Positions 1-13,200 of a stretch of 35,667 nucleotides of DNA are shown here, piece after piece. Under the pieces are notes generated by a model, which ran no database searches, was not told the DNA's origin, and saw only the letters and a program-made list of their open reading frames with translations. Positions within the stretch are counted from its first letter, which is position 1. Every line of letters begins with the position of its first letter. The stretch comes from a virus. The translations under genes and the position numbers were made by a program. Where the stretch lies: IMG/VR virus record IMGVR_UViG_3300007541_000074, positions 1-35,667 of that record; one strand, written 5' to 3'.

Positions 1-65
1 TTCAAGAGTTTTGGAATCATGAAGACTTCCCCATTGATGAGTACGGATACTGCATTCAAAAGTAA
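1..65 (+). CDS. C-terminal end of an unidentified gene (5' truncated)
   Basis: Only the last 20 codons are in the window, read from base 3 and stopping at TAA 63-65. The tail reads EFWNHEDFPIDEYGYCIQK. Of the three forward frames this one looks most protein-like: frame 2 stops at once, and frame 1 gives a low-complexity tail. The stop codon is followed 8 bases later by a clear intrinsic terminator, so a forward transcription unit ends here. The last 10 bases overlap the end of the HNH gene on the reverse strand. Too little is left to identify the product. Confidence 0.55.
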   Translation, partial: QEFWNHEDFPIDEYGYCIQK

Positions 66-550
66 CATTTAAGGGGAGCAAATTCGCTCCCTTTTTTTAT
101 ACTTTTTTTTACTTCTATGATACGGTAACCTTGAGACCAGTTTTGTCTGTATTTGGAAGACATTGTACCATGAAGGTTTTGCATATGTAGGTTATTTTCT
201 TTACACCATTTTGATAAATTAAAAACTTCAAACTTTTCACCATTCTTATTTTCAATTATAAAAGTTTTTGCTAATGAATGCTCTACATTTCTCTGAGAAT
301 TGCACCATTCTAAATTATCAATCGAATTATTTGATCTGTTTTTATCAATATGGTTAATTTGTGGAAGATTGTCTGGGTTTGGTATAAATTCTTCGGCAAT
401 CAACCTATGAATATAATAAGAAGTTTTATTTAATTTAACTCCCAAATACCCTTTACACCGATGAAACTTTTTTAATTCTTTTCCTTTTGAATTATAAAAA
501 CTACCATCTTCTGATATAAAGTAACCAGGATGATTTCTTAATTCTTTCAT
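56..550 (-). CDS. HNH homing endonuclease (NUMOD4-HNH type)
   Basis: This 164-residue protein is a predicted free-standing HNH homing endonuclease, a class that nicks or cuts intron-less alleles to spread its own gene. Residues 8-20 (PGYFISEDGSFYN) match the start of the DNA-binding NUMOD4 region. IHRLIAEEFIPNP (47-59) and NHIDKNRSNNSIDNLEWCN (66-84) form the ββα-metal HNH core, with H67 as the likely catalytic histidine and N75/N79/N84 as the conserved Asn series. Residues about 105-127 resemble a NUMOD1 module. The start ATG is at 548-550 with no clear Shine-Dalgarno sequence. The gene runs against its left neighbour and its last codons cross that neighbour's terminator. A paralogue with the same core lies at 4275-4841 on the other strand. 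The family call is strong; activity and target site are unknown. Confidence 0.9.
   Translation of the reverse strand: MKELRNHPGYFISEDGSFYNSKGKELKKFHRCKGYLGVKLNKTSYYIHRLIAEEFIPNPDNLPQINHIDKNRSNNSIDNLEWCNSQRNVEHSLAKTFIIENKNGEKFEVFNLSKWCKENNLHMQNLHGTMSSKYRQNWSQGYRIIEVKKSIKKGSEFAPLKCYF
74..98 (+). terminator. Rho-independent terminator
   Basis: GGGAGC (74-79) pairs with GCTCCC (86-91) around the loop AAATTC, followed by seven T (92-98). It closes the truncated gene to its left. The same bases lie inside the coding sequence of the reverse-strand HNH gene, so the hairpin is also translated there. The sequence leading into it, GTAACATTTAAGGGG, resembles the block found before the hairpins at 2967, 3344, 3661 and 4033. 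Confidence 0.8.
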
Positions 551-685: not shown

Positions 686-710
686 ACCTGCAGTTCACAC
701 CACTGAACCA

Positions 711-899
711 ATGACCCGCACCAACGTTCTGCCCATGGATCGCGTCACCGTGACCCTGACTGAGGCACAGTGGAGCACGATCCGAACCGCAGTGCTTTGC
801 CTTGCTTGCGACTGCCGCACCGCTGGCAAGCACACCGATGCCACCTACTACCTGAACGCCTACAACAACCTGAAGGTAGCGATGGGAATGGACGCCTGA
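711..899 (+). CDS. Small unidentified protein, 62 residues
   Basis: This is the first of a series of forward mini-genes. The product is 62 residues and probably helical: after VTVTLTEAQWSTIRTAV there is an amphipathic stretch with three cysteines, then DATYYLNAYNNLKVAM. I do not recognise a family. The ATG at 711 was chosen because its leader (CAGTTCACACCAC, seven bases before the ATG) matches the leader of the next gene at 974; an in-frame ATG at 735 is the alternative. There is no Shine-Dalgarno sequence. The stop is followed by a strong hairpin at 906-940. Codons are richer in G and C than in the structural genes further right, which suggests a different origin. Confidence 0.6.
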   Translation: MTRTNVLPMDRVTVTLTEAQWSTIRTAVLCLACDCRTAGKHTDATYYLNAYNNLKVAMGMDA

Positions 900-1387: not shown

Positions 1388-1549
1388 ATGACCATTGCAA
1401 CTTTACACTCTGAATGGCAAATCGCTTTTGCAGAATGGCATCGCCACCGCACTGATGAATGTGCCGAAGCAGAGAAAAATGCAAGGGTTAGTTATCTCTC
1501 ACTCATTCGTGAGATGAGAAAAGCAAAGATTAGATCTCGAACAGAATAG
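1388..1549 (+). CDS. Small basic unidentified protein, 53 residues
   Basis: From ATG 1388 the product starts MTIATLHSEWQIAFAEWH and ends REMRKAKIRSRTE. It is charged, rich in Arg, Lys and Glu, and likely a single helix or helical hairpin. An in-frame GTG at 1361 would add nine hydrophobic residues (MVVSSFLII) and give 62 residues; I prefer the ATG. Unlike its neighbours it has neither the CACC leader nor a hairpin before it. Its stop codon TAG abuts the first palindrome of the array that follows. No family is recognised. Confidence 0.5.
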   Translation: MTIATLHSEWQIAFAEWHRHRTDECAEAEKNARVSYLSLIREMRKAKIRSRTE

Positions 1550-1728
1550 TCTCGACGAGATCACACACATCAATCTAGTCGAGATGCACATCATACACAT
1601 CTCGTCGAGAATACACATACATCACATAATCTAGTCGAGATCGCACACATCAATCTAGTCGAGATTACACACACATCACATAATCTCGACTAGATACACA
1701 CACCTACAACATACAATCTCGACGAGAT
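1549..1728. repeat. Array of seven 13-bp palindromic sites
   Basis: Seven near-identical 13-bp palindromes with an odd centre lie at 1549-1561, 1573-1585, 1599-1611, 1629-1641, 1653-1665, 1683-1695 and 1716-1728. The ideal form is ATCTCGACGAGAT. Several copies are ATCTAGTCGAGAT, or its reverse complement, with one arm changed to CTAG. Centres are 24 to 33 bases apart. Linkers are made almost only of ACACAT/CATCA-like sequence. This has the look of an operator or initiator-protein array. Repeats are too short and the linkers too simple and too alike for a CRISPR array. Confidence 0.8.
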
Positions 1729-1762
1729 TGTACACATTTAACACACATTCGCAACTAGATTC

Positions 1763-1927
1763 ATGCACAACACATCACGCCAAATTAACTCAATCGGGTT
1801 CACAATTACTTATCAAACACCATACAATCAATGCGAATGGCGTACACAATCATTCACAACTAGAGAAGAGGCAGAGAGAATGATTGCATTCTATAAGTCT
1901 TGTGGAAGTCCTGCTAAGTTTGTATAA
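1763..1927 (+). CDS. Small unidentified protein, 54 residues
   Basis: The frame runs from ATG 1763 to TAA 1925-1927. The product starts MHNTSRQINSIGFTITYQ, has a middle WRTQSFTTREEAERMIAFY and ends SCGSPAKFV. The pattern (short strand, then a helix beginning TREEAERM) suggests a compact αβ mini-domain, but I know no named family. It lies between the palindrome array and the long inverted repeat, whose left arm begins inside its last codons. If translated, its mRNA would end in that hairpin. Confidence 0.55.
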   Translation: MHNTSRQINSIGFTITYQTPYNQCEWRTQSFTTREEAERMIAFYKSCGSPAKFV

Positions 1928-2010
1928 AGAACTAACTCAGGATTAAGTGTAGTTTGTTAGTCAGTGGTGTGGTTTAGTTCTCTACACTTAGTCCTGTCTT
2001 AGTTCTTTAT
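1924..2010. repeat. 29-bp inverted repeat (long hairpin)
   Basis: Bases 1924-1952 are the reverse complement of 1982-2010 with 26 of 29 positions matching, around a 29-base loop. The ends are perfect for 12 and 9 pairs. The outer end holds AGTTCTTTAT, which recurs at 2333, just after the tandem array. The right arm leads directly into the 25-bp repeats. It may act as a transcript 3' structure for the 54-residue gene or as a cruciform in the DNA. Confidence 0.75.
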
Positions 2011-2025
2011 ACTTTATACCTTCTG

Positions 2026-2336
2026 CTGTTTGAGTTTAGTTAAAACAACACTGTTTGAGTTTAGTTAAAACAACACTGTTTGAGTTTAATTAAATCAGTG
2101 CTGTTTGAGTTTAATTAAATCAGTACTGTTTGAGTTTAATTAAATCAGCACTGTTTGAGTTTAATTAAATCAGCACTGTTTGAGTTTAATTCACTTAGTA
2201 CTGTTTGAGTTAAATTAAATCAGTACTGTTTGAGTTAAATTAAATCAGCACTGTTTGAGTTTAATTCACTTAGTACTGTTTGAGTTAAATTAAATCAGTA
2301 CTGTTTGAGTTTAATTCACTTAGTACTGTTTGAGTT
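2026..2336. repeat. 25-bp tandem repeats, 12 full copies plus a partial one
   Basis: The word CTGTTTGAGT recurs at exact 25-base steps from 2026 to 2326 (thirteen starts; the last copy keeps only 11 bases). The rest of each unit varies in blocks: two early copies have TTAGTTAAAACAACA, most have TTAATTAAATCAG, and three have TTAATTCACTTAG. Copies 7-12 alternate between the last type and a TAAATTAAATCAG type. The array is AT-rich. A 13-base direct repeat, AGTTCTTTATACT, flanks it at 2001-2013 and 2333-2345. The period is not a multiple of three and no frame crosses it sensibly, so it is non-coding. It resembles replication iterons, but the function is not known. Confidence 0.9.
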
Positions 2337-2345
2337 CTTTATACT

Positions 2346-2657
2346 AACTGCCTGCTGCTGCGATTCCAACCACACAAGCGCCCGATCTGTCAAGCGTTTG
2401 CCCATAAGCGTCACTGATCAGTCGGATTTGCTTTTTGGTATCCTGCGATACCTTTTGCCCTTGCGGGATCGTTGCCGACCCTTTACAGTGAGCGGAGCGA
2501 ACCTTGAAAACCGAATAGGGCAACGGGCGGAGCGCGGGCGGCGCTGCGCTTCGCGGGCGACGTGTCGGGCGGGATCCCACGCGCACCGTTGCGCTATTTT
2601 TATATTTTTAAGATTCGCCATTCGGTTACATTTTTGTCCTTTATTTTTCACAGTCCC
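2346..2657. other. GC-rich non-coding stretch before the 102-residue gene
   Basis: About 310 bases with no convincing gene. Bases 2500-2600 are strikingly rich in G and C (runs such as GCGGAGCGCGGGCGGCG), in sharp contrast to the AT-rich repeats on the left. Frames through it on both strands give Arg/Cys/Ala-rich translations typical of non-coding GC-rich DNA. It ends in a small hairpin and a T-rich stretch at 2581-2610. It could encode a structured RNA or be recently acquired DNA; I recognise no tRNA or known RNA family. Confidence 0.5.
2581..2610 (+). terminator. Possible terminator
   Basis: GCGCA (2581-2585) pairs with TGCGC (2590-2594) around CCGT, followed by a T-rich stretch broken by A (2595-2610). 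The stem is only five pairs but all but one are GC. It would end any transcript from the GC-rich stretch. Confidence 0.4.
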
Positions 2658-2966
2658 ATGACACTTCTTGTCGGACAAGTTGAAACTCTCATGCCTGAAC
2701 TTCTGCAGGCAATGGAAGACGCAGACGCTGCAAAGCGTCGCGTTGATGATCTCAAAGCGCAGATGATTGCGCTGATTGAAGAACCTCAAACGGTCAAGAC
2801 TTGCTGGGGTTCGGTTACACTTAACCGTGGCAGACGCACGGTTAAGGTTACAGATAAGGCGCTGAATGCGCAGATCACACTACTTAAGGAGAGCGGAATC
2901 TCCGAGGGTAAGTGTGAGGAATCGGTAGGATCTCCTTTCGTCACTGTTAGGAAGTCCGACCGATAA
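2658..2966 (+). CDS. Unidentified coiled-coil/β protein, 102 residues
   Basis: From ATG 2658 the product is 102 residues. Residues 1-45 form a charged helix suited to a coiled coil (VETLMPELLQAMEDADAAKR). The second half has alternating basic strands (WGSVTLNRGRRTVKVTDK), then a helix and a closing FVTVRKSDR strand. This helix-then-β layout distantly recalls the Gp157-type phage proteins, but that is only a resemblance. The frame stays open upstream to 2562, but ATG 2658 is preferred: it has the TTTTTCACAGTCCC leader resembling the other cassettes, and the upstream extension lies in GC-rich non-coding DNA. The stop is followed by GTTACATTC and the 2976-2997 hairpin. Confidence 0.7.
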   Translation: MTLLVGQVETLMPELLQAMEDADAAKRRVDDLKAQMIALIEEPQTVKTCWGSVTLNRGRRTVKVTDKALNAQITLLKESGISEGKCEESVGSPFVTVRKSDR

Positions 2967-3352: not shown

Positions 3353-3374
3353 AGGGAGGCACTTCCACCTCCCT
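3353..3374 (+). terminator. GC hairpin between mini-genes
   Basis: AGGGAGG (3353-3359) pairs with CCTCCCT (3368-3374) around CACTTCCA. It is preceded by GAGTTACATTT and followed by ATTTCACACAAACCACACC. It has the same layout as the hairpins at 2976 and 3671. Confidence 0.65.
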
Positions 3375-3670: not shown

Positions 3671-3693
3671 AAGGGCGGCAATCTTCCGCCCTT
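3671..3693 (+). terminator. GC hairpin between mini-genes
   Basis: AAGGGCGG (3671-3678) pairs with CCGCCCTT (3686-3693) around CAATCTT. It is preceded by AAGTTACACTT and followed by TCTTTCACCTTTCACC, nearly the same tail as after the hairpin at 2976. Confidence 0.7.
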
Positions 3694-3723
3694 TCTTTCA
3701 CCTTTCACCTCATTTTCAAGACA

Positions 3724-4029: not shown

Positions 4030-4045
4030 GTTAGTTACACTTAGT

Positions 4046-4074
4046 GGGCGGCAGTTGTTTATACTCTGCCGCCC
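4046..4074 (+). terminator. GC hairpin ending the mini-gene series
   Basis: GGGCGGCAG (4046-4054) pairs perfectly with CTGCCGCCC (4066-4074) around an 11-base AT-rich loop. It is preceded by the GTTACACTTAG block shared with the other mini-gene hairpins. No T tract follows. Confidence 0.65.
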
Positions 4075-4078
4075 CAAT

Positions 4079-4274: not shown

Positions 4275-4841
4275 ATGAAAGAAACTCAGTACCCAGGATA
4301 TTATATTACAGAAGACGGAAGGGCATATAGAAAACCCACAAAAAGGGATTCATCCGGAAAAATAGATGAAAATGGTTTAATATACTTAAAACCCAGTCTT
4401 AGAGGAAATCCAAGAAATAAAAAATATCAATATGAGTGTATTAATATTTCATTATATGATGAGAATGGAAAATTTGTAAAGCAAATCAAAAAAAGCATTC
4501 ATCAATTAGTTGCAGAAACTTTCATTCCAAATCCGAATAATTATTCAGAAATAGATCATATTGATAGAAATAAGAAAAATAATCATATAAACAATTTACA
4601 GTGGTGTAATAAACTTCATAATATGAGATGGAGTTCTGAAGAAAATGCAAAATATTTTAAACTAACTGACATAATTACAAATAAAATATATGAAGGGGAA
4701 AATCTTCAAAAATTTATTAGAGAAAACTGGGAATGGATTTCAAAAAGAACAAAAATCAATAATGATAGAAAATTTACAAGTCATTTGATAAGAAAATATA
4801 AAAAACAAGCAGTCGTAAATGGGTTTATTCTTAAAAGATAA
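4275..4841 (+). CDS. HNH homing endonuclease (NUMOD4-HNH type)
   Basis: This 188-residue protein is a second HNH homing endonuclease. PGYYITEDGRAYRK (7-20) matches the NUMOD4 start. IHQLVAETFIPNPNN (75-89) and DHIDRNKKNNHINNLQWCN (94-112) form the HNH core, with H95 as the likely catalytic residue. The core closely resembles that of the reverse-strand gene at 56-550, while the N-terminal part has an insert of about 28 residues and the C-terminal part differs, so the two are paralogues and not a recent duplication. It has its own strong promoter. Codons are very AT-rich (many Lys, Asn and Ile), unlike the mini-genes before it, as expected for an independently mobile gene. It has no Shine-Dalgarno sequence. 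Confidence 0.9.
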   Translation: MKETQYPGYYITEDGRAYRKPTKRDSSGKIDENGLIYLKPSLRGNPRNKKYQYECINISLYDENGKFVKQIKKSIHQLVAETFIPNPNNYSEIDHIDRNKKNNHINNLQWCNKLHNMRWSSEENAKYFKLTDIITNKIYEGENLQKFIRENWEWISKRTKINNDRKFTSHLIRKYKKQAVVNGFILKR

Positions 4842-6536: not shown

Positions 6537-7159
6537 ATCATAGTTTACCTGATTGGTCTTGTTATATTCGCAATGAATTTCTTTATAATCATAAAAAAGG
6601 TCATGGTGAAGTAACTAAATGTGATGTTCACTCTGTTGCAAGTATAGAAAAACGTGTACCTCTTTTTGAGGCATTTTTGGAAAACGGTGTAAATTGGACT
6701 AGAAGACCTCTACACGCTTTTTGTTGGGATCCTAATGCTGCGATAGAACCTCTTGAGAACATTATGTATTGGGATTGTTTTTCTCCATATATTGATGTTC
6801 AAAGAAGACATAGACTTGCCAATTTAGATGCTCAACTTATTCGCCCAGACGGAAAAAAAGTATTAGGAACATATATGTTCACCCTTGATTGGTCATGGGA
6901 AAACAAAGGAGTGCTTGATTTGAACTTTTCAGAAACTCCAGAACATAAATGTGCTCATCTATTTAAGGTTGAAACTGGTAATTATTATGCATATCCAAAT
7001 AATCGTATTATTTGGTATGATAATGCTTGGGTTTTTAATAGAATAGATAAAAATCCTGGATATGAAATAGACATGACTGCATATTCTGTAGAAAATAAAC
7101 GAAAAATTGAAACTTCAGATCATTACATTTACGAAATCACTGATTTAGAACAAAAATAA
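6524..7159 (+). CDS. Unidentified protein, 211 residues, TTG start
   Basis: The best start is TTG 6524, seven bases after GGAG (6513-6516), giving 211 residues starting MAYLNHSLPDWSCYIRNEF and overlapping the SET gene by 13 bases. No ATG near the start gives a comparable frame. The protein is soluble and rich in Trp, Tyr and Asn: LHAFCWDPNAAIEPLENIMYWDCF, then LGTYMFTLDWSWENKG, and a run of β strands near residues 150-190 (YYAYPNNRIIWYDNAWVF). A double-stranded β-helix fold would be possible but is not shown. No family is recognised. The last bases of the gene overlap a candidate late promoter at 7155. Confidence 0.8.
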   Translation: MAYLNHSLPDWSCYIRNEFLYNHKKGHGEVTKCDVHSVASIEKRVPLFEAFLENGVNWTRRPLHAFCWDPNAAIEPLENIMYWDCFSPYIDVQRRHRLANLDAQLIRPDGKKVLGTYMFTLDWSWENKGVLDLNFSETPEHKCAHLFKVETGNYYAYPNNRIIWYDNAWVFNRIDKNPGYEIDMTAYSVENKRKIETSDHYIYEITDLEQK

Positions 7160-10225: not shown

Positions 10226-13200
10226 ATGGTACAGAATGGTTTCGAGTCAAGAGTAAAAGTACAGCAAATAATTGATAGTCAATTACCAGAATTTATTTTA
10301 GATGAAAGTCCTAAAGCATCTGAATTTTTAAAGCAATATTATATTTCTCAAGAATATCAGGGTGGTCCAACAGATATTGTTGAAAATTTAGACCAATATA
10401 TAAACCTCGATAGTCTTATTCCTGAAGTTATAGTTGGTAGTATAACTCTTAATAACTCCATAACAAGTAGTAGTAATACTATAGAGGTGAGTAGCACTAA
10501 AGGATTTCCCTCCCAATATGGTCTACTGAAAATTGATGATGAGATAGTAACATATACAGGATCTACAGAAACTTCCTTTACTGGGTGTATTAGAGGATTT
10601 AGTGGAATTACAAATTACCATAAAGATCTTCAATATGAAGAATTGGTTTTTACTGAGTCTTCAGCAGTATCTCATTCTGCAGGTGCATCTATTGAAAATC
10701 TTAGCTCATTATTTTTACAAGAATTTTACAAAAAAATTAAATTTAGTTTAACTCCAGGATTGGAAGGAGTAGATTTTACTGCGAACTTGAATGTTGGAAA
10801 CTTTATAAAAGAGGCAAGATCTCTTTATGAATCAAAAGGAACTGCAGAATCCTTTAGAATTTTATTTAATGTTTTATTTGGAGAAACCCCAACTGTAGTA
10901 GACCTAGAGCAATTTTTAATCAAACCTTCTGATGCTAAATTTATAAGGAGAGATGTTGCTGTAGTTGATGTAATTTCTGGAGACCCTACTAAGTTATCTG
11001 GACAAACGATCAGGAAATCTACTGACGAAGAAAATACTAGCGCATCAGTTTCTGAAGTAGAAACTATTACTAGAAAAGGAAAAACATATTACAAACTCAA
11101 CTTTTTTATTGGATATGATGATACCTATCCAAATGTCACTGGCACTTTTTCCATAACACCAAATACTAAAGTAGTTGAAGATGTTACTTTAAGTAATGTT
11201 GCAACAACAATTACTGTAGATTCTACAGTAGGATTTGCAGAATCTGGTAGTGTTTTTTATAATGGTAATGAAATATTTTATTCTGAAAAAACTGTTAATC
11301 AATTTTTAGGTTGTTATATAAACTCCACCCAATCAATTAATATCAGTAAAACTTCTAGAATCATATCTAATGATACTTACTATGGTTATGAGGATGGGGA
11401 TGTTACAAGAAAAGTAGAGTTTATAATCACAGGAGTACTATCTAATATTGTCATTGATTCAAATTCATATAGTTTCTTAGAAGGAGAAGAAATATATCCA
11501 CAGAATCTTGGAAAAATTATACCTAAAGGTGATGAAATAAATCAAATTTTTGCAAATACTTGGATTTATAATACTAGCTCTAGATATCAGGTAGACTCTT
11601 TTTCTGCCAATACTATTACAACGAAGTCTTCAATTGATAATACAAGTTTAGCAGTTGATGATGTAATTGAAGTTTTGCAAAGAAATACTGAAATTGTAGT
11701 CTCAGGTTTTGAAAACGTTAATGTAATATCAATTTCAGGAAATGAATTGACAGTTGATGTCAGTACTTCTTCATTAAATCAAAATGCAGAATACGATATT
11801 AGACGAATAATTAAAAAAGCATCATCTACAATTGTTCCAATTCAGTTTGGTAATGATAAAATAACTGCCGATGTGCAAAATGTATATGATGAAAACTCTA
11901 AAAATTTGTATGTCGCTTCTAACTCTATTCCATCATATCCAATTCAAACTAATGTTTTTGAATATGAAGTAGTTGGATTATTGGAAAGAGGTGATAATGA
12001 GGCGTATAGTGTAATTGATTTTGGCATTCAAAATCCAGTTTCATTTATAACTGGCGATAAAGTGTATTATTACACTCAAAATAATGATTTTATAGAAGGT
12101 TTAGTAGAAGGACCTTACTATGTTGAGGTATTATCTAATGTTAATCCAGATATCGATAATACTAGGATTAGGTTATATTTAAGTAACTCTACGGTTGGGT
12201 CTGATGATTATGTTTCTTTTGGTACATTATCTAACGGGATTGTAACAGGAACTCATAAATTTGTTTTATATTCTCAAAAATCTAAGGTAATTTCACCACA
12301 AAAACTTCTTAGAAAATTTAAGTTAAATCAGACAATTGGTGACAACAAAAAATATGAAACTGTTCCCGGTCCCGTTGGACTATTAAAAAATGGCGTTGAA
12401 ATCTATAATTACAAAACTCAAGATAAAATATACTATGGTCCCCTAGAAAGTGTTAATGTATTAAATGGAGGAAATGGATATGATGTTATAAATCCACCAT
12501 CAGTCACTTTATCAACTGGCAATGCTCTTGTACAACCTGTAGTTAAGGGATATGTTGAAAAAATATTTGTAGATCCTCAAGACTTTGATGTAGATGTTGT
12601 AGTTTCTGTAGCACTTACTGGTGGTAATGGGTCTGGTGCAAGTTTTCAACCAGTTATAGAAAAGTATGTCAGAGAACTTGAATTTGATGCTAGACCACTA
12701 TCTGGTGGTGGAGGATTGGATTTTGTCAACGAAAGGATTGCATTTATAGAAAATCATAATCTGATAAATGGACAACCTATTGTTTATAACAGCAATAACT
12801 TCAGTCCTATTGGAATTGGCACTTTTGGTGGATCAGATTTGGATCAATCCAAAACACTAGTAAATGGTGCAACTTATTATTCTAAGGTAATTAATGATAA
12901 AACTATTGAGATTTATCAAAGTTTATCGGATTATTCTGCAGGTATTAATACTGTTGGATTCACTACAATTGGAAATGCAGGTATTCAAAAGTTTAAGACT
13001 GAGATAAAAAATAAACTATCCGAAATAAAAGTAATTAATGGTGGAAGTGGGTATACGAATAGAAAGTTAAGAGTAAGTTCAACTGGAATATCCACTTATA
13101 ATCACATAATAGAATTTGAAAATCACGGATTTTTGAATGGAGAAATTATATCCTATAACTATGAAAATACTGGTATATCTGGATTATCAACTTCAGTAAA

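Follow-up and report, generated by a model that had tools for sequence, protein, structure and literature searches.

Introduction

Repressor operators of the lambda/P22 and LacI types are dyad sites placed in the -35/-10 spacer or just past the -10 hexamer, present in several copies and joined by distant auxiliary clusters. KorB operators are 13-bp odd palindromes found in several clusters. At the RNA level, lambda nut sites place boxA in a leader upstream of a terminator-bearing operon, and the RNase III hairpins of T7 and of rRNA stems have long, near-perfect stems with an internal mismatch. Among the viruses of aquatic habitats, T4-like cyanophages rank with the most abundant, and we know of no regulator dedicated to their early or middle genes. 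Recruitment of the rRNA antitermination complex in E. coli needs boxA, which alone suffices for it; the next element, boxC, forms part of a long paired stem (PMC10250234). In cyanobacteria, boxA and D4 have been defined in the 16S-23S spacer (PMC8461337), and a published primer provides a picocyanobacterial version, GAACCTTGACAACTGCATAG (PMC9769826).

The cyanophage locus described here resembles lambda/P22-type and LacI-type operators in the promoter placement, multiplicity and clustering of its dyad sites, but these sites occur in T4-like phages described as lytic, their clusters hold up to seven promoterless copies, and spacings of 24 or 31-32 bp are preferred. Odd-centred palindromes in dispersed clusters are shared with the KorB operators of RK2, from which the sites differ in sequence. 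Like the cyanobacterial spacer, the phage leader has GAACCTTGAAAA and CYGMATAG followed at once by a long stem, and this order of boxA and then an immediate long stem also recalls the boxB-boxA-boxC arrangement of E. coli rrn operons. Unlike the boxA of cyanobacterial or E. coli rRNA, the phage copy lies in a leader, has no similarity outside about 21 nt, and its box strand may pair. The leader is like a lambda nut site in carrying boxA upstream of a terminator-bearing operon, and unlike it in that no defined boxB was identified and the boxA is of cyanobacterial type. Finally, the phage hairpin shares a long, near-perfect stem with an internal mismatch with the RNase III hairpins of T7 and rRNA, but its loop of about 15 nt is invariant. 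On balance, we interpret the region as probably a composite transcription-control locus that heads a mini-gene operon and combines an operator array, a structured hairpin RNA and a boxA leader.

The locus and its conservation

The window, meaning the whole stretch of DNA analysed, is a 35.7-kb virus record in which the gene at 10226 encodes a T4-type baseplate wedge initiator (gp7). Over its first 1000 residues, gp7 shares 68% identity with that of the freshwater cyanomyovirus S-SRM01, a Synechococcus phage, and 38-47% with those of marine cyanomyoviruses. The window comes from a T4-like freshwater cyanophage (Kyanoviridae, near S-SRM01), of whose genome it is a fragment. The features of the locus are as follows.

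1550..1727, no strand assigned: candidate operator array of seven exact odd-centred 11-bp palindromes, TCT(A/C)G(A/T)C(G/T)AGA (TCTMGWCKAGA)
1763..1927, + strand: tiny gene, 54 aa (MHNTSRQIN...EWRTQSFTTREEAERMIAFYKSCGSPAKFV), predicted beta-beta-alpha fold
1922..2012, + strand: long hairpin, 31-nt arms 1922-1952 and 1982-2012, 90% complementary, stem of about 30 bp
2026..2336, no strand assigned: tandem array of a 25-bp unit, CTGTTTGAGTTTAATTAAATCAGTA, with thirteen cores
2382..2657, + strand: conserved GC-rich leader ahead of the ORF at 2658, 70% identical to S-SRM01 over 2382-2646
2492..2616, + strand: multi-branched structured RNA with covariation, its stem closed by the boxA strand and a downstream complement
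2499..2518, + strand: boxA+D4-like 20-mer, GAACCTTGAAAACCGAATAG, matching the cyanobacterial 16S-23S spacer signal
2658..2966, + strand: conserved first mini-gene of the downstream operon, 102 aa
2976..2997, + strand: terminator-like G/C-rich hairpin after the first mini-gene
About 3353-3374, 3671-3694 and 4045-4075: similar terminator-like hairpins, read from the sequence

The first-pass annotation had reported seven palindromes, a tiny gene, a long inverted repeat, thirteen tandem repeats and a GC-rich island, and all are present where it had placed them. They follow one another in the order palindromes, 54-aa gene, hairpin, repeats and GC island, with 213 nt (1550-1762) and 730 nt (1928-2657) of non-coding DNA. 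The array, tiny gene and hairpin are kept together in about 20 independent contigs, the synteny that the annotation had proposed to look for: the last array site starts 17-72 nt before the tiny gene, the hairpin loop lies 35-239 nt past it and, in a subset, the boxA RNA lies 338-744 nt past it. Taken one by one, the palindromes, the tiny gene, the hairpin and the GC island are conserved and the 25-bp tandem repeats are not, so the annotation's caveat that the elements might be individually unconserved applies to the repeats alone. Across these comparisons the locus is a real, conserved control region. The further proposals, of a non-coding control locus among the mini-genes of a T4-like cyanophage and of an undescribed regulatory hub, both gain support from synteny, from the placement of operators in promoters of relatives and from RNA covariation. 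The locus is apparently undescribed: open-access literature searches of incomplete coverage found no description of the operator motif, and neither promoters nor palindromes come up in the paper on S-SRM01.

The T4-type late promoter ATAAATA is absent from the locus, its first + strand copy in the window being at 7156. No tRNA or known RNA family was found at the locus, where no Rfam score exceeded the gathering threshold; we discarded sub-threshold matches, mostly eukaryotic microRNA models on AT-rich repeats. Two AT-rich HNH homing endonuclease-like genes, at 56-550 (- strand) and 4275-4841 (+ strand), flank the mini-gene region, and an annotated HNH endonuclease gene lies within the homologous control locus of S-SRM01 (L001 4481-4918).

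The palindrome array

The seven palindromes start at 1550, 1574, 1600, 1630, 1654, 1684 and 1717 (spacings of 24, 26, 30, 24, 30 and 33), are separated by C/A-rich spacers and are followed near 1753 by a degenerate half-site, AACTAGAT. TCTMGWCKAGA occurs nowhere else in the window, even allowing one mismatch, and 20,000 first-order shuffles of 1300-2700 averaged 0.003 sites and never exceeded 1. Relatives were first picked through the protein at 2658, independently of the motif, and the array is present in 15 of the 15 protein-selected loci whose contigs extend far enough upstream; five array-less loci (L010, L013, L015, L021 and L025) have just 288-621 nt before the gene. S-SRM01 has four exact copies, then the HNH endonuclease gene and then the GC island. 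A pattern scan found site pairs in at least 119 viral stretches, a number that is no evidence of conservation because these stretches were selected by the motif, unlike the surroundings of the sites, which do count as evidence; in this motif-selected collection, spacing between neighbours peaks at 24 and 31-32 bp.

In S-SKS1, L144 9100-9450, many ACGAGAT half-sites lie across and past the promoter and tiny gene. In S-CAM7 (L318, 869-957) the palindrome is absent and five copies of CGCAG(C/T)ATA lie near the orthologous gene, possibly representing a different operator specificity at the same locus.

Sites within promoters of relatives

A perfect sigma-70 promoter of P-SSM2, TTGACA-ATCTCGACTAGATCTGG-TATAAT, has its 17-bp spacer filled by one site, and in S-SKS1, S-T4 and S-SRM01 sites lie within or around the TATAAT promoter of the corresponding small genes. 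Perfect TTGACA/TATAAT promoters accompany 14 of 169 clusters, compared with 0 of 845 shuffled clusters. Fifty distinct near-consensus promoters lie no more than 150 bp from a site. Fourteen of them carry an operator, with up to 2 mismatches allowed, in the spacer, against a background of 2.1%, or about one expected; all 14 operators lie 16-18 bp before the -10, and seven are exact. In a second group of promoters, the site begins at the last base of the -10 hexamer. The -35/-10 spacer and the -10 end are classical repressor positions, and the palindrome is best read, from this placement, as an operator. The orthologous small gene of S-SM2, SynMITS9220M01, S-SCSM1, Bellamy and S-B05 has a perfect or near-perfect promoter without the operator, and no motif clusters were found in these five genomes.

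Promoter placement also bears on whether the array could act as RNA, its palindromes pairing within a transcript as a leader structure. The C/A-rich stretch could be a transcribed leader and some neighbours are perfect partners, but adjacent sites form reverse-complement pairs at about the chance level (68 compared with 65.6 expected), their centre bases are complementary in 121 of 265 neighbour pairs compared with 132.6 expected, and sites between -35 and -10 are untranscribed. We therefore rejected RNA pairing between neighbouring palindromes, and regard the array-as-RNA reading as highly improbable.

A second question is which protein reads the operator. Comparing gene presence and absence between four array-bearing and four array-free genomes yielded no convincing regulator candidate; the one substantial shared protein, of 172 aa, has no clear link to DNA binding. 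A helix-turn-helix (HTH) protein near the L011 clusters was rejected as the regulator, as it is not conserved among relatives. This outcome, together with the fact that we know of no cyanophage middle-gene activator, leaves some room for a host transcription factor, or a middle-gene activator box, in place of a phage repressor site. We consider this quite unlikely, since a site between the -35 and -10 of already strong promoters suits repression rather than activation, and phages of similar hosts lack the site.

Cluster architecture

The homologous cluster in S-SRM01 and eight contigs is the last of three or four that lie 2.5-4 kb apart, and the first, about 5-7 kb upstream, carries the promoter. 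Where three clusters are present in relatives, they reach about 6 kb beyond the last one. The three clusters of L011 are at 1256-1413, 4322-4409 and 6972-7022, and those of S-SRM01 span 85570-91006. The upstream cluster extends into the reading frame for a tiny protein rich in D and Y (MYDDY...ELAYRHYA), in which the sites encode Asp-Leu-Asp-Glu.

The window begins past the position of the other clusters. Across its own cluster (1550-1762), the + strand lacks a good sigma-70 promoter, and the - strand offers just a 9/12 match. Because this cluster is promoterless and the others would lie outside the window, its exact action, by looping or as a roadblock, is one that we infer.

Several clusters at a conserved spacing of 2.5-4 kb, three in the arrangement considered here, are also what a partition or nucleoid-type (parS/KorB-like) array would offer, with a ParB/KorB-type protein bridging three clusters of 13-bp odd palindromes; KorB operators are likewise odd palindromes in multiple clusters. 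The precise fit of sites into promoter spacers indicates transcription control instead, and partition would bring a lytic phage no obvious benefit, so we give little credence to this reading and retain that of operators.

Tiny gene, long hairpin and tandem repeats

The tiny gene is present in 55 contigs, and profile and fold searches of its 54-aa product returned no significant Pfam, PHROG or PDB relative. The hairpin (model R1) has a conserved apical loop, GTCAGTGGTGTGGTTTA, at 1960-1976, and the loop GTCAGTGGTGTGG is identical in 20 of 20 aligned copies. These copies have 29-38 predicted base pairs and an internal mismatch that recurs at a similar place in the stem, and two arm families unrelated in sequence carry the same loop. 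Searches of S-SRM01, P-SSM2 and parts of S-SKS1 and S-T4 turned up no such hairpin. The roles to which we give most weight, as leading ideas, are RNase III processing and a small RNA acting through the loop.

Several genes have leaders containing ACCACACCAC, to which the loop is complementary. This string has 1-5 copies on the coding strand of hairpin-bearing stretches 10-36 kb in length and zero in S-SRM01 and P-SSM2. We treat this complementarity as a lead that might guide further work, not as an established result. A leader, TGTAGGATTCTCTCAGTTCACACCACACCACCATG, part of which is complementary to the hairpin loop, recurs ahead of several small genes in the window (697-713, 960-974 and 1189-1202), in L009 and in L011.

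The tandem array contains thirteen CTGTTTGAGTT cores, every spacing being exactly 25 bp, and has a GC content of 28% compared with 33% in the whole window. Its unit resembles the 3' arm of the hairpin and is common to L009, L012, L282, L267, L140 and L073. In other relatives, L011, L014 and L024 among them, the same place holds unrelated repeats, and units of 15 or 33 bp occur there; thus the position of the repeat tract is common and its sequence is not. A CRISPR array was rejected, the units running head to tail without unique spacers between them.

An array of sites, AT-rich tandem repeats and a hairpin together resemble an iteron-type origin, and the first-pass annotation had proposed an undescribed origin as one reading. 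Under such a scheme the palindromes would be initiator sites, the 25-bp repeats an unwinding element and the hairpin a primer of synthesis, and the detrended GC skew of P-SSM2 does reach its maximum at 65,745, about 300 bp from its array. The proposal nevertheless finds little support: no initiator was found, the skew of S-SRM01 has neither a peak nor a turn at the array, the AT-rich repeats are replaced by unrelated sequences in relatives, the same sites lie inside promoters elsewhere, and other cyanomyoviruses have no sites at all. T4-type phages start replication from transcripts or by recombination, not from initiator-bound iterons, which also argues against it. An origin is thus improbable; an operator array combined with a leader RNA that is processed or structured accounts best for the locus.

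A proposed boxA leader ahead of the mini-gene operon

The GC island reaches 62% GC at 2366-2594, compared with 33% in the whole window. Within it, an upstream hairpin, GGTATCCTGCGATACC, lies near 2439-2454, and the stretch of highest conservation is CGAACCTWGAHAA, represented in the window by GAACCTTGAAAACCGAATAG. This 20-mer, with the boxA-like core GAACCTTGA, consists of a cyanobacterial boxA (GAACCTTGAAAA) and a D4-like tail (CTGCATA), and stands in sense orientation 140 nt before the ORF at 2658. Phage contig L073 matches the picocyanobacterial version at 19 of 20 bases, and the phage variants ...GAAAAC... and ...GACAAC... mirror host variants. The surrounding structured RNA (model R2) has 13 pairs changed on both sides and a covariation score of 0.260, compared with 0.138 when shuffled and at most 0.07 when slid. 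The boxA RNA is missing from some array-bearing phages.

The cyanobacterial-type boxA pattern had 119 genome matches, 73 of them located in the 16S-23S interval, behind 16S or a short way ahead of 23S. Because the other 46 are elsewhere or unplaced, outside rRNA spacers, the string is not exclusive to rRNA. Examples of the 20-mer outside recognised rRNA spacers are L150, L178, L222 and L157, for which CRISPR leaders are one possibility. We rejected captured host spacer DNA, as no similarity extends beyond about 21-24 nt in the host genomes compared.

The boxA strand pairs with the downstream strand in 83% of cells (helix 1), and could be hidden since it can be base-paired in the predicted RNA. 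Such pairing is also what would be seen if the string were fortuitous or purely structural, forming the 5' strand of the stem that closes the folded RNA and recruiting nothing. This reading keeps appreciable weight but is still unlikely in our judgement: the match to the host signal extends over 20 nt, the A/C variant of host type included, the strand hardly changes though its partner varies, and similarity to host spacers stops at about 21-24 nt. The boxA+D4 identity instead suggests that host Nus factors may be recruited to the mini-gene operon. Help past terminators is plausible because boxA precedes mini-genes that each end in a terminator-like hairpin. To our knowledge, cyanobacteria lack Rho, so classical Rho antitermination is inapplicable.

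Discussion

Our interpretation builds on direct observation of the elements, their order and conservation, the promoter-operator placement in relatives, the RNA covariation and the identity of boxA. We propose that the array consists of DNA operators of one dimeric, probably phage-encoded, repressor-like protein. Because the upstream cluster of relatives lies within a consensus sigma-70 promoter, a protein bound there would block RNA polymerase and presumably repress transcription. The cluster in the window would most likely be an auxiliary operator, either a roadblock or a looping partner, acting over the tiny gene and the transcript. The long hairpin would be a structured RNA, probably either a site at which RNase III processes the transcript or a small RNA displayed through its invariant loop. 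In the folded leader RNA, boxA would recruit the host NusB/S10 machinery, and Nus-loaded polymerase could then traverse the terminator-like hairpins between the mini-genes.

A more ambitious proposal, doubtful as a whole, is that lytic T4-like cyanophages possess a widespread, undescribed circuit in which a phage repressor on loopable three-cluster operators is combined with a processed hairpin RNA and an mRNA leader that takes over the host's rRNA boxA machinery on behalf of a phage operon. If true, a repressible, pause-capable infection programme or superinfection immunity would be possible. Such a control locus would be a new way for abundant cyanophages to time their genes.

The operator is common to cultured P-SSM2, S-SKS1, S-T4 and S-SRM01 and to more than 100 environmental stretches, and thus offers a direct handle for fishing out the cognate protein with DNA. 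If the reading is correct, a phage leader with a boxA of host type would mean that these phages borrow the rRNA transcription apparatus, and limited literature searches found no report of such borrowing by these cyanophages. The boxA+D4 string also occurs in array-less viral contigs (L268, L269, L271-L278, L280, L281, L283, L285, L286, L288 and L289), several of which have an apparent hairpin just upstream, and boxA use may be more general among phages.
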